Assembly: GCA_029012285.1 (NCBI GenBank)
Contig: JAQXLU010000071.1
Span: forward strand, 1 to 46,634
DNA length: 46,634 nucleotides
Direction of reading: 5' to 3'
DNA from: Clostridiales bacterium
Lineage (GTDB): Bacteria > Bacillota > Clostridia > Christensenellales > Aristaeellaceae
The position numbers were made by a program, and so were the translations under genes. Positions 12,854 through 16,807 of this stretch are shown piece by piece (within the stretch, counting starts at the first letter, position 1; each line of letters opens with the position of its first letter). The notes under the pieces are model-generated. The model was not told the origin of the DNA. It saw only the letters and a program-made list of their open reading frames with translations, and ran no database searches.

Positions 12854-14878
12854 ATGAACGATGGCAACAATCAAGGGGAACGCCACCGCCGCGCGCAGCG
12901 CACGATGGATCCCATCCTGGATGAACCGTCCATGAGCGCTCCCTCGCCCATGCCGGGGAAGCCCGCTGGCGCCCATGCCCGTCAGACTGGGCGCAGGGCC
13001 TCCCAGATGCAGCCGAAGCAGCAGGAGGCGCGCGTGTCCGCCCAGCAGGGCTGGTCAACGCCCCAGCAGACGGCAGCGCCCCAGCAGCCCTACGGCTACC
13101 CGGTGCAGCCGGTGTATCCGCCAAGGCCCAGCCAGGGCATCCCTGGCGGTCAGCTGCCGCCCCAGCAGTACGGCGCGTGGCAGCAGGGGTACAGCCCCGC
13201 GCCCCAGCAGGCGTGGCAGCAGCCCTACCAGCAGCACGCCGGACGTGGCTGGTCCCAGCCCTATCCTGTACAGAACCAGCAGCCCCAGCCGCAGAACCAG
13301 TGGCAGGGCGGCTACAGCGTCAACCCGTGGGAGGATGGCTATCCGCCCATGCAGGACAGCTCGCAGCAGCCCAGCGGGAGCATCCCCGGCATGCCGCCGG
13401 TGCATCCACGCCCCAGCCGCAATACCATCCTGAAGCTGGTGGCAGCAGCCATCGTCCTGGTGATCGCGGTGTGCGTGGTTGTGGGGACGATCAACCACCG
13501 GAGCGAAAAGCAAGCGCTCTACGCCTCGGTCGCAGCCTATGACGACCGCTACTGCCAGGGCGTGTATGTGGACGGCATCCACCTGGGCGGCATGACCCGC
13601 GAGGAAGCCCAGGCTGTGGTGCAGAAGAACGCCCAGCTCAAGTGCGACGAATGGAATGTCAGCCTCGTCACCTCAGAGAACGAGTATGTGGGCGAGATTA
13701 ACTCTTACCACCTGGGCATGACTGTCCATGTGGAGGATGTGTTGGACGAGGCCTGGAAGCAGGGCCACACCGGCAGCACGGCAGAGGAACGCTACGCTGC
13801 CATGAACGCGCTGCTGGAAACGCCTTACTACGCCATCACCGCCATGCCCAGCGGCAGCACTGAGGCGGTGGACAGTATCCTCAACGCCATCGCGGAAAGT
13901 GTGTATGTCCCCGCGACGAACGCCTCCGCCATCTTTGAACCGTGGAAGGTCAATCCCTTCACCATCACCCCAGAAACCGTGGGCCGGTATCTGGACGTGG
14001 CTTCCATCAAAAACCAGGTGTATGATATGCTCTCCCGCATGGAGTCGGGGGTTGTCATCGTCGCCCCCACGCCGCTGTACCCCTCCATCACCCAGGCGGA
14101 TGTGGAGCGCCAAACCTCGCTGATCGGCACGCACTACACGGCGATTTCCACCACCTCCACCGAAAACCGGGTGATGAACATCAAGCGCGCGTGCGAGCTC
14201 ATCAACGGCACGGTCATTGCCCCGGGCAAGAACTTCTCCTTCAACGACGTGGTGGGCCCGCGCACGGCGAAAACCGGCTTCTACAAGGCCATCGAGTACG
14301 CCTACGGCAAGCAGGTGGAGGGCTACGGCGGCGGCATCTGCCAGGTCAGCTCCACCATCTATGTGGCGGCTGTCCGGGCGAATCTGGACATTCTTAAGCG
14401 CACCCAGCACGCCCTGGAGGTCAACTACACCCCCTTCGGCCTGGACGCGACCGTCAACTACGACGGCAAAAAGATCGACTTTGTGTTCCAGAACAACACC
14501 GGCGGCAATCTGTACATCGTCACCAAGGTGATGAAAAAGCCGAAGGTGGACAACAACCACTCCCTGGTGGTCTGCGAGATCTACGGCCCCGCGCTGGAAG
14601 CTGGCGTGACCTACGACCTGATTGCCACCAAGACGGAGGTGCCCATCCCCGAACCCACCACTGTGCCGGACAAGAAGGCGGAATATGTGGTGTACACCGA
14701 CGAGACCTACACGGTGAATGGCTCGGTGGGCTACGAGGTGGACAGCTACAAGGTCAAGTATGTGGATGGTAAGGAGGTGGATCGCACCTTCATGTACCAT
14801 GATACCTATGCGGCGGTGCAGCCGATCATCTATGTGGGTGTGAGCGAGCGGCCGCTGGAAACGACAGAACCCTGGTGA
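12854..14878 (+). CDS. VanW family protein with Gln-rich N-terminal region
   Basis: The 674-residue protein has a Gln/Pro-rich cytoplasmic-side region (about 1-185, many QQPYQQ-like runs), one transmembrane helix (about 190-213, LKLVAAAIVLVIAVCVVVG), then an extracellular part with a peptidoglycan-binding-4-type repeat region (VDGIHLGGMTREEAQ at about 240) and a VanW domain (about 440-560: APGKNFSFNDVVGPRTAKTG and GYGGGICQVSSTIY). VanW proteins are common wall-associated proteins of Gram-positive bacteria with no established activity; their name comes from a vancomycin-resistance cluster but does not by itself imply resistance. GGAAGGGAGGG precedes the ATG. Its low-complexity N terminus resembles that of the protein at 6549-8021, six genes upstream in the same run. 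Confidence 0.9.
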   Translation: MNDGNNQGERHRRAQRTMDPILDEPSMSAPSPMPGKPAGAHARQTGRRASQMQPKQQEARVSAQQGWSTPQQTAAPQQPYGYPVQPVYPPRPSQGIPGGQLPPQQYGAWQQGYSPAPQQAWQQPYQQHAGRGWSQPYPVQNQQPQPQNQWQGGYSVNPWEDGYPPMQDSSQQPSGSIPGMPPVHPRPSRNTILKLVAAAIVLVIAVCVVVGTINHRSEKQALYASVAAYDDRYCQGVYVDGIHLGGMTREEAQAVVQKNAQLKCDEWNVSLVTSENEYVGEINSYHLGMTVHVEDVLDEAWKQGHTGSTAEERYAAMNALLETPYYAITAMPSGSTEAVDSILNAIAESVYVPATNASAIFEPWKVNPFTITPETVGRYLDVASIKNQVYDMLSRMESGVVIVAPTPLYPSITQADVERQTSLIGTHYTAISTTSTENRVMNIKRACELINGTVIAPGKNFSFNDVVGPRTAKTGFYKAIEYAYGKQVEGYGGGICQVSSTIYVAAVRANLDILKRTQHALEVNYTPFGLDATVNYDGKKIDFVFQNNTGGNLYIVTKVMKKPKVDNNHSLVVCEIYGPALEAGVTYDLIATKTEVPIPEPTTVPDKKAEYVVYTDETYTVNGSVGYEVDSYKVKYVDGKEVDRTFMYHDTYAAVQPIIYVGVSERPLETTEPW

Positions 14879-14942
14879 TACCACCGGGGAGGGAAGGAAC
14901 ACGGCTTTCCCGGCAGCATCAACAGCGGTCAGATGAAATCGA

Positions 14943-14971
14943 TTGACAGGAGCAGCCGATCATGATATACT
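14943..14971 (+). promoter_or_regulatory. Strong promoter of the rsgA leader
   Basis: Perfect TTGACA (14943-14948), 17-base spacer, TATACT (14966-14971) with an extended TG element at 14963-14964. This is one of the two strongest-looking promoters in the window. Transcription would start near 14978, giving a leader of about 290 bases before rsgA. Confidence 0.85.
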
Positions 14972-15020
14972 GCTCCTGTCAAGCCACAGTTCCAGATATC
15001 GGGAAGAGGAGGTAATGAAC

Positions 15021-15095
15021 ATGATGATGAAGCTTGTGAATGTCAGCCGTCATATGGTGTTGATGGTTACCTCGGTGCTTGCCGCACAGCGTTGA
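15021..15095 (+). CDS. 24-residue leader peptide upstream of rsgA
   Basis: A short ORF beginning MMMKLVN and ending VLAAQR, preceded by AGAGGAGG (15005-15012) with an eight-base spacer. An in-frame ATG at 15015 is too close to that site. The ORF lies between a strong promoter and an intrinsic terminator, and its stop codon falls in the loop of a 7-bp hairpin (15084-15102). This is the usual arrangement of a leader peptide that senses ribosome stalling or charging. No run of one amino acid suggests amino-acid attenuation; methionine and valine are frequent (6 Met, 5 Val). Confidence 0.65.
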   Translation: MMMKLVNVSRHMVLMVTSVLAAQR

Positions 15096-15153
15096 GCTGT
15101 GCCTGTTTGTGCAAACAAGCATGTCCGCGGTGTCATCACCGTGGGCATTTTTT
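15084..15153 (+). terminator. Attenuator-like hairpins and intrinsic terminator before rsgA
   Basis: Three structures follow the leader ORF. Hairpin A: GCACAGC/GCTGTGC (15084-15102, loop GTTGA containing the stop codon). Hairpin B: TGTTT/AAACA (15104-15117). Terminator: a 12-bp stem 15121-15132 with 15137-15148, loop TCAT, then six T (15148-15153). TGCTTG at 15077-15082 is complementary to CAAGCA at 15117-15122, a possible alternative pairing reaching the base of the terminator. A further hairpin CGCCAGG/CCTGGCG lies at 15168-15197. Confidence 0.75.
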
Positions 15154-15266
15154 GTGCATGTGGCAAACGCCAGGTGCTGGAGAATGGCCGCCTGGCGCTA
15201 TTTGGTTGTGGCTTGCGTGCGGCAGGGCGGCAGAGGACGGACGCTTTTTGAAAGGAGACTGCCAGC

Positions 15267-16235
15267 TTGAATTTCGTCAAAGCACGGATCATCAGAGTGA
15301 ACAGAGGTCAGTATACGGTCAGCCTGAATGGCCGGGAGGTCGCGGCGGCGCTCGCCGGGAAGCTCCGCCACAAGGGCATCTACCCCGTGATTGGTGACTA
15401 TGTGGGCGTTCAGGAGGTTGCAGACGGTGAAGCGGTGATCCACGAGGTCATGGAAAGGTTCAGCTACCTGTGCCGTCCGGACAGCTGCGGACATGCCGAT
15501 GGCTATGTCAAGACGCTGCTGGAGCAGCCCATGGTTGCCAATATTGATTATCTCTTCATCATCACATCGCTCAACGATGATTTCAGCGTCAATCGGATCG
15601 CGCGGTTTGCGGCAACGTCCATCCAGGGGGGCTGTAAGCCGGTCATCATCCTCACCAAGGCGGATCTCTGTCCCAACAGGGAGGAATTCCTGGCGCAGGT
15701 CCGCAGCATGAACAATACCTGGGATGTGTTCTGTGTCAGCTCCTATACGGGCGAGGGCATGGATGAGGTGAGGAGGTACCTCCGGCCCGGGATCACCATC
15801 GGGCTGATGGGGTCGTCCGGCGTGGGCAAGTCCACCCTGGTGAACACCCTTGCGGGGCGCGAGGTCATGAAGGTCAGCGCCATCCGCGAGAAGGACGCCA
15901 AGGGAAAGCACACCACGACCCACCGCGAGCTCTTGGACATCAACGGCACCTATTTCATAGATACGCCGGGCATGCGCGGCTTCGGCCTGGGCGATACGGA
16001 GGAGGGGCTTAACGAAACCTTCGAGGACATTGCGGAGCTGGTACAATGCTGCCGTTTCAACGATTGCAGCCACACCAGCGAGCCGGGCTGCGCCATCAAG
16101 GCGGCCTTGAAGGACGGCACGCTGTCGCCAGAGCGCTGGCAGCTCTATTGTGATCTCATGCAGGAGAGCAGCCGCTCGAAGTCGATGGCATTGAAAAAGA
16201 AGATTGCTATACAGAAAAAACGGATGGGGCTATAA
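15267..16235 (+). CDS. rsgA: RsgA-type circularly permuted GTPase
   Basis: RsgA is a late 30S assembly factor whose GTPase is stimulated by the small ribosomal subunit. The 322-residue protein has an N-terminal OB fold (about 1-75), then G motifs in permuted order: G4 TKADL (about 130), G5-like SSYTGEG, G1 GSSGVGKST (about 176), G3 DTPGMRGFG. The C-terminal zinc site is CRFNDCSHTSEPGC. The start is TTG at 15267, nine bases after AAAGGAG. Most genomes have rsgA near a PP2C/PrkC pair; here it instead sits behind a leader ORF and terminator and is followed by a kinase-like gene, so this may be a second, inducible paralogue. That is inference. Confidence 0.9.
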   Translation: MNFVKARIIRVNRGQYTVSLNGREVAAALAGKLRHKGIYPVIGDYVGVQEVADGEAVIHEVMERFSYLCRPDSCGHADGYVKTLLEQPMVANIDYLFIITSLNDDFSVNRIARFAATSIQGGCKPVIILTKADLCPNREEFLAQVRSMNNTWDVFCVSSYTGEGMDEVRRYLRPGITIGLMGSSGVGKSTLVNTLAGREVMKVSAIREKDAKGKHTTTHRELLDINGTYFIDTPGMRGFGLGDTEEGLNETFEDIAELVQCCRFNDCSHTSEPGCAIKAALKDGTLSPERWQLYCDLMQESSRSKSMALKKKIAIQKKRMGL

Positions 16236-16318: not shown

Positions 16319-16807
16319 ATGGGAAAGGTATACTTGATATGCGGAAAAATATGCAGCGGCAAATCGTATTATGCCAAGACGCTGAAGGAGAAGCATCATG
16401 CGGTCATTCTGTCAACAGATGAGGCAACTTATGCTTTGATCCATAATGAGCAGGGTGAATTCTATGATGTCTTTGCCCAGCGCGTCAATCGTTATCTGGC
16501 AAGGAAAGCGGTGGAGATCTGCCAGGCAGGCGCGAATGTGATCCTGGACTGGGGGTTTTGGACAAGGGAAAACAGAACCGCCATCTCGGCGTATTTCAAA
16601 TCACATGGGACAAGCTGCGAATGGCACTATATTGATATCGATGATGATACCTGGAAGCGCAACATCGAAGAACGCAATCAAAGAATCGAGGAAGGGAATG
16701 GAGGTTCTGACTTCTATGTGGATGCAGGGCTGCTGAACAAGCTGCTCTCCATGTTTGAAACGCCTGACAGAGATGAGATGGATGTCTGGTATCAGTTGAA
16801 GCGCTGA
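16319..16807 (+). CDS. P-loop kinase-like ATPase (AAA_33/zeta-like)
   Basis: A 162-residue protein with a Walker A motif GKICSGKS at residues 9-16, a conserved acidic STDEATY after strand two, ILDWGFWT as Walker-B-like strand, and a Arg-rich lid region (WKRNIEERNQRIEEGN). This layout is that of small P-loop kinases of the AAA_33 group, which includes chloramphenicol phosphotransferase-like, zeta-toxin-like and RNA-end kinases; the substrate cannot be assigned. The ATG at 16319 follows CGGAGG. It lies 83 bases after rsgA with no terminator between, so it probably shares the attenuated transcript. A bidirectional terminator follows. Confidence 0.75.
   Translation: MGKVYLICGKICSGKSYYAKTLKEKHHAVILSTDEATYALIHNEQGEFYDVFAQRVNRYLARKAVEICQAGANVILDWGFWTRENRTAISAYFKSHGTSCEWHYIDIDDDTWKRNIEERNQRIEEGNGGSDFYVDAGLLNKLLSMFETPDRDEMDVWYQLKR

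Follow-up and report, generated by a model that had tools for sequence, protein, structure and literature searches.

Upstream of a gene for an RsgA-type GTPase in a Clostridiales genome, a promoter, a short reading frame and an intrinsic terminator follow one another, and the question raised by this locus is whether expression of the GTPase gene depends on what ribosomes do on its leader. Leader attenuators built around an upstream open reading frame (uORF) mark genes reserved for ribosome trouble, including those for ABC-F proteins, Erm, TetM and HflXr. The region was analysed within the window, that is, the whole stretch of 46,634 nucleotides of contig JAQXLU010000071.1, and was compared with the corresponding loci of relatives.

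Architecture of the leader region

The sole promoter-like site detected in positions 14700-15500, where 0.3 would be expected, is a forward-strand sigma-A type promoter (TTGACA-17-TATACT; 14943..14971) that agrees with the consensus at 11 of 12 positions and carries an extended -10 element, with TG preceding the -10. The Shine-Dalgarno sequence of the leader, GAGGAGG (15006-15012), forms the core of strand 1 (15000..15019, forward strand), the 5' side of the anti-antiterminator, and is followed on the same strand by a uORF of twenty-four codons plus TGA (15021..15095; ATG at 15021, TGA ending at 15095) with the peptide MMMKLVNVSRHMVLMVTSVLAAQR. Within this uORF lies strand 2 (15063..15085, forward strand), containing GTTACCTCGG, which is a partner of strand 1 or, as 15067-15083, of strand 3. 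A forward-strand hairpin with a 7-bp stem (GCACAGC-GTTGA-GCTGTGC; 15084..15102) includes the stop codon of the uORF within its loop. Strand 3 (15118..15133, forward strand) is both the 5' arm of the terminator and the antiterminator partner of strand 2 (-14.1 kcal/mol), while the intrinsic terminator (15121..15153, forward strand) comprises a 12-bp stem (15121-15148) and a run of six T (15148-15153), with a stability of -21.1 kcal/mol. Promoter, Shine-Dalgarno sequence, 24-codon frame, stop-codon hairpin and 12-bp terminator with six T had all been marked in the initial annotation, and each was found again at the position given there. The Shine-Dalgarno sequence of the downstream gene, AAAGGAG (15251..15257, forward strand), was located by eye. 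The 296-nt leader region folds more stably than 200/200 of its shuffles (z -3.0). A scan of the window against Rfam at gathering scores returned one tRNA and no regulatory RNA family, and the same scan of 20 chosen relative loci gave zero matches.

Two perfect 13-bp arms form an inverted repeat (14943..14982, without strand) that encloses the entire promoter, a feature absent from the initial annotation. It has one exact occurrence in the genome and is a candidate operator of a dimeric regulator, and control may therefore be two-layered. A dimeric repressor bound to this palindrome could even be the real switch, with the leader merely trimming noise. The perfection of the repeat, its span over the promoter and its uniqueness in the genome would fit such protein-mediated control, but inspection by eye revealed no such palindrome at the promoter of any of the relatives L037, L006 and L038, though the leader is present there, and control by palindrome and by leader can coexist. 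Repression as the real switch is thus considered very unlikely.

The leader peptide MMMKLVNVSRHMVLMVTSVLAAQR does not include the RLR motif of macrolide-type leaders. Methionine makes up five of its twenty-four codons, with MMM at the start of the uORF, as would suit attenuation by methionine charging. However, the uORFs of the nearest relatives L037, L006 and L038 contain no Met run and the regulated gene is not biosynthetic; this explanation, which deserves hardly any credence, was dropped because the feature is not conserved. More generally, the uORF peptides of the listed relatives have no codon run in common, making a charging attenuator unlikely, in line with what had been judged from the window before.

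RsgA2 and its canonical counterpart

The gene downstream of the terminator, rsgA2 (15267..16235, forward strand), starts with TTG at 15267 and encodes a divergent RsgA paralogue, with matches to PF03193 (3.2e-46) and to the RsgA N-terminal domain (RsgA_N, PF16745; 1.4e-6), a TIGR00157 score of 163.8 bits (cut-off 100), and P-loop and Zn-knuckle motifs recognised by eye. A P-loop kinase with an AAA_33 domain (16319..16807, forward strand) is encoded by the probable second gene of the operon, so that the order of a TTG-started rsgA and a P-loop kinase, as first described, is confirmed. The conjecture that the GTPase is a paralogue was likewise correct: the canonical rsgA of the same genome is encoded on contig C63 and is 29 % identical, and rsgA2 is therefore not the housekeeping copy.

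Using a limit of E 1e-45 or better, rsgA2 matches were obtained in 75/300 family, 75/391 class and 83/398 phylum genomes, in samples that overlap one another; in the sampling near this lineage, between about one fifth and one quarter of genomes carry the paralogue. A lower-scoring canonical match also occurs in 12/13 paralogue-bearing genomes checked, the exception being G021. In a quick tree of 124 rows, 16/18 canonical rows form one clade on a long branch (support 100), with the remaining 2/18 placed among long, unreliable rows, and the window rsgA2 is sister to that of L037 (support 100). End branches exceed 5 in seven paralogue rows and a branch of 9.3 is common to L058-L060; such long-branch rows were probably read in the wrong frame. 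A second rsgA2-like copy (L035; G000:C147, 225-718, minus strand) is ~71 % identical, with the matched pieces in two frames. No leader is seen upstream of it, a coding-like stretch extending up to the copy, and it could represent decay, contamination or an assembly error.

Twenty reading frames downstream of rsgA2 were chosen out of 54; the APH kinase fold is encoded by seven of them, a GNAT acetyltransferase domain by six and a MATE protein by one. Since APH and GNAT folds cover drug-modifying enzymes but many others too, these neighbours give only a hint of a drug-resistance role for RsgA2. In the nearest sub-clade (L044, L052-L056) a methyltransferase-like reading frame, by eye, often stands directly before rsgA2 without a leader of its own, and an APH-fold kinase follows rsgA2 in several of the same loci (L044 tested). 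Further upstream in the window, a VanW / peptidoglycan-binding protein is encoded (12854-14878), with no evident link to the operon.

Recurrence of the leader among relatives

A locus was scored as carrying the leader if a strong-SD uORF and then a terminator occurred within 450 nt upstream of the gene. This arrangement was found at 47/99 rsgA2 loci in a first set and 39/80 in a set fetched later; a count over 178 rsgA2 loci gave 85, versus 16/178 of their shuffles, and in dinucleotide shuffles it was seen in 13/297. None of 20 canonical rsgA loci (eighteen distinct, one duplicate and one distant fragment) showed it, while it preceded 11/137 other frames of at least 150 codons from ~215 kb of this genome, the window's own case excluded (Fisher p 3e-15 for 85/178 versus 11/137). 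Compared with shuffles or with other frames, the combination is enriched ~5- to 11-fold at rsgA2. A terminator alone within 400 nt was present at 46/100 rsgA2 loci, compared with 3.5 % of shuffles and 1/20 canonical loci. Either of two leader definitions, one of which was picked after part of the data had been seen, applied to 106/178 rsgA2 loci, 17/178 shuffles and 0/20 canonical loci, leaving 72/178 rsgA2 loci with neither. The ordered promoter, Shine-Dalgarno sequence, uORF and terminator, originally recognised as an attenuator-type arrangement, are hence present in the window, and the uORF with Shine-Dalgarno sequence and terminator recurs at rsgA2 loci above controls.

Absence of the leader from close relatives had been named in the initial annotation as grounds for abandoning an attenuator, and this ground does not apply. 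The leader is kept as promoter-like site, uORF and terminator at L037, L006 and L038 and as uORF and terminator at L166, and its architecture is met again across the rsgA2 family, though the closest dense sub-clade (L044-L063) lacks it in 17/19 loci that were scored, many of which, by eye, directly follow another reading frame. Leader peptides differ between groups while the architecture is kept. In a sub-group consisting of L094, L095, L097, L081, L080, L110 and L217, stretches like TAAAACCGAATA follow the uORF stop and AACCTTTCGTGAATACTG stands before the terminator. Allowing one mismatch at most, the latter motif had nine matches in 291 class genomes, seven of them upstream of rsgA2; the stray matches L161 and L163 lie in other sequence without a reported rsgA2 match and were set aside. 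The members of this sub-group that were scanned against Rfam gave zero matches, and the sub-group may represent a new RNA family. Viral contigs, scanned for the exact motif, and plasmids, searched distantly with the L094 and window leaders, each returned zero matches. A MAG with the label uncultured proteobacterium contains a relative of rsgA upstream of which a strong-SD short ORF was noticed by eye (L039, ~2600-2690).

Alternative pairings of the leader

Three helices compete for the same strands in the window: the anti-antiterminator 1:2 (15000-15019 with 15063-15085; -19.6 kcal/mol), the antiterminator 2:3 (15067-15083 with 15118-15133; -14.1 kcal/mol) and the terminator 3:4 (-21.1 kcal/mol). 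Pairing of strands 1 and 2 stands out against shuffles (z -3.8), and in 16/22 relatives with uORFs of eighteen to thirty codons the best partner of the Shine-Dalgarno sequence begins 38-48 nt after the uORF start. Covariation, which had been suggested as a check, was assessed by comparing each leader's own pairing with partners swapped between leaders (20,000 permutations, floor p 5e-5), leaving out twelve near-copies and L069, which has no firm terminator; the remaining kinship of the loci inflates the p values. The Shine-Dalgarno sequence paired better with its own downstream region (n=68, p 5e-5, the permutation floor) and, among long uORFs, with its own fixed +30..+66 window (n=21, p 5e-5). 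The terminator arm likewise preferred its own +30..+66 uORF window (p 0.0023) and its own whole spacer (n=68, p 5e-5), with the control pairing of terminator arm and Shine-Dalgarno region also reaching p 0.013. These tests support the predicted anti-antiterminator and antiterminator pairings across relatives, and mutually exclusive anti-antiterminator, antiterminator and terminator helices are found by computation in the window and by covariation in relatives. Against shuffles of the downstream region, Shine-Dalgarno pairing reached p 0.05 in 20/78 leaders, where ~4 are expected, and the window is among seven leaders at the floor of p 0.01. In the short-uORF group (n=35) no antiterminator partner emerged, either in the 3' half of the uORF (p 0.15) or in the spacer (p 0.057), and a partner of the terminator arm inside these uORFs is not supported.

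Leaders were also folded with and without a ribosome. When folding extended only to the terminator 5' arm, a start-bound ribosome raised arm pairing by at least 0.2 in 9/34 leaders, several of which are close kin, as for instance in L072 (0.38 to 0.87). In the window, arm pairing falls from 0.73 to 0.56, as other upstream strands can hold the arm. The finished terminator was kept (at least 0.88) in 32/34 leaders folded without a ribosome; with a ribosome on codons 1-3 it was lost in L006 and weakened in L051 and L065, and in those 3/34 only. Equilibrium folding of full leaders was discarded as a discriminator of on and off states, which it fails to separate because the finished terminator dominates, and truncated folding did better, though not for the window. 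Since the window's own folding shows no start-stall switch, the switch is argued from covariation and from relatives.

The persistence of the terminator in nearly all leaders, with or without a ribosome, together with the failure of start occupancy to favour the window antiterminator, is what would be expected if the terminator were constitutive insulation, the short ORF a product of chance and rsgA2 weakly expressed by read-through from the promoter. Such an origin would not, however, explain the enrichment of the leader at rsgA2 over controls, the covariation of the Shine-Dalgarno sequence and the partner strands, or the translation-attenuator layout which takes the place of the terminator at some loci, and insulation is considered quite unlikely.

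Translational form and terminal SD-like element

At thirteen rsgA2 loci without a terminator the uORF ends in a GGAGGT-like strand, and in 12/13 an anti-SD and then the rsgA2 Shine-Dalgarno sequence lie downstream of the uORF. Own uORF ends pair with the spacer better than swapped ones (p 0.00025) and better than shuffles (mean z -2.8; L089 is the exception at +0.3), and the anti-SD was judged by eye to cover the rsgA2 Shine-Dalgarno sequence as well. By their sequence these thirteen loci appear to fit a translation-attenuator version of the same logic, twelve of them well. The rsgA located beside pnp in Listeria monocytogenes, presumably lmo1332, is placed among the paralogue rows of the tree and has a uORF with a shorter version of the translational layout.

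Of the short uORFs (n=35), 23 contain GGTG, in every case in frame, and twenty of the 23 have it at a distance of exactly 13 nt from the stop, compared with a mean of 11.4 (maximum 20) in codon-order shuffles and 10.2 (maximum 19) in dinucleotide shuffles. Complementarity of the short uORFs to the assumed sequence of the 16S 3' end is -9.99, codon shuffles giving -6.33 (sd 0.40). Strong-SD uORFs in which GGT precedes the stop by 13 nt were found at 61/180 loci versus 12/900 shuffles and 0/20 canonical loci, the place of the GGT having been fixed after the short-uORF analysis on partly the same loci. A spacing of 13 nt would suit a ribosome sitting at the stop codon. The window uORF does not contain this terminal SD-like element.

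Proposed mechanism of rsgA2 control

The leader elements recur across relatives and their 1:2 and 2:3 helices covary, and the leader is likely to attenuate transcription in a ribosome-dependent way, as the leaders of vmlR and hflXr do, with rsgA2 being turned on by a ribosome that is held close to the start of the uORF. Transcription would start near 14978, as judged from the -10, and a ribosome would load on the uORF, which is presumably translated. During normal translation the ribosome would pass over strand 2 (uORF codons 15-22) and end at the stop codon, and after its departure strand 2 would fold back onto the leader Shine-Dalgarno sequence (1:2). In both cases strand 2 could not hold the terminator 5' arm, so that 3:4 would form and RNA polymerase would stop before rsgA2. 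A ribosome held at or near the uORF start, whether by slow or drug-blocked early elongation or as a non-productive initiation complex, would occupy the Shine-Dalgarno sequence and leave strand 2 free to pair with the terminator 5' arm (2:3), whereupon rsgA2 and the kinase gene would be transcribed. Start-proximal stalling would then be the signal, which ribosome-directed antibiotics or translation stress may supply, and RsgA2 would subsequently act on 30S subunits or stressed ribosomes, giving a putative feedback from ribosome status to 30S maturation. The recurrence of similar leaders at rsgA2 in many relatives suggests that cells make RsgA2 when ribosomes stall.

Alternatively, the leader may sense free or stuck 30S subunits rather than stalled elongation, with a 30S subunit on the leader Shine-Dalgarno sequence competing with the internal anti-SD strand, and with RsgA2, a 30S factor, being switched on when non-productive 30S complexes are in excess. 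Sensing of 30S subunits would agree with the nature of strand 2, which mimics an anti-SD and has the leader Shine-Dalgarno sequence as its partner, with the sufficiency of start-codon occupancy in those leaders that respond in folding, and with the additional SD-like GGT that many uORFs carry 13 nt upstream of their stop. The window uORF is, however, without that terminal element, and 30S sensing and early-elongation stalling look alike at the level of sequence; we regard sensing of 30S subunits in place of stalling as unlikely.

A wider interpretation, offered tentatively and with less than even confidence, is that RsgA2 constitutes a class of GTPase so far overlooked, inducible and serving to protect 30S subunits or to rescue ribosomes. 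Its leaders would read ribosome occupancy of the uORF via internal anti-SD strands, and in many members the additional SD-like site that precedes the uORF stop by 13 nt would park a terminating ribosome or 30S subunit there, placing a 30S factor under the control of the state of 30S subunits.

Returning to the ribosome-dependent attenuator, its recurrence across the paralogue family points to this widespread GTPase as a factor that probably responds to translation stress or to drugs, and the rsgA2 leader offers a reporter for finding the signal it answers. Here, furthermore, occupancy of a leader by 30S subunits may regulate a factor that itself acts on the 30S subunit.

Comparison with known attenuators

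In translation attenuators of the ermC type, a uORF strand, an anti-SD and the Shine-Dalgarno sequence of the gene alternate in pairing. The thirteen terminator-free rsgA2 loci share this logic, whereas the gene and the leader peptides differ.

The closest parallel among duplicated GTPases is hflXr with its leader rli80 in Listeria monocytogenes. There hflXr forms a separate clade beside a second hflX not involved in resistance, many Firmicutes carry both duplicates, and the neighbourhood of the resistance copy is the less conserved (PMC6310831). Like rsgA2, hflXr duplicates a GTPase that acts on ribosomes, stands well apart from the other copy in the tree, and is preceded by a uORF with terminator, antiterminator and anti-antiterminator (PMC6310831). 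The two differ in that HflX acts on 50S/70S ribosomes and RsgA on the 30S subunit, that the rli80 uORF has an RLR motif and the window uORF none, and that antibiotic induction and resistance were shown for hflXr and are conjectural for rsgA2.

The vmlR leader of Bacillus subtilis also combines anti-antiterminator, antiterminator and terminator helices, and initiating ribosomes are described as stalling on its uORF, with both transcription and translation attenuation (PMC9226507). By analogy, stalling of initiating ribosomes may operate on the rsgA2 leader, and both attenuator forms, as predicted from sequence, would likewise occur across rsgA2 loci. The vmlR system differs in concerning an ABC-F gene with a 3-codon uORF, most rsgA2 uORFs having 8-30 codons, and in its anti-antiterminator, for which the partner in rsgA2 leaders is the leader's own Shine-Dalgarno sequence.

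Duplicated or drug-related RsgA proteins have been encountered elsewhere. The RsgA/EngC proteins SCO6149 and SCO5211 of Streptomyces coelicolor are listed among paralogue pairs in which WblC activates one partner, whose level increases with tetracycline (PMC7157823); in contrast to the leader proposed for rsgA2, control there is by the transcription factor WblC/WhiB7, itself uORF-attenuated, and not by a leader on the gene. Staphylococcus aureus rsgA mutants are listed as drug-tolerant (PMC10117726). Within the open-licence PMC papers searched, no report of an RsgA/YjeQ gene under a uORF attenuator was found, and the rsgA2 leaders are here classed with the uORF attenuators, the kind of gene that they would control being new among the targets.
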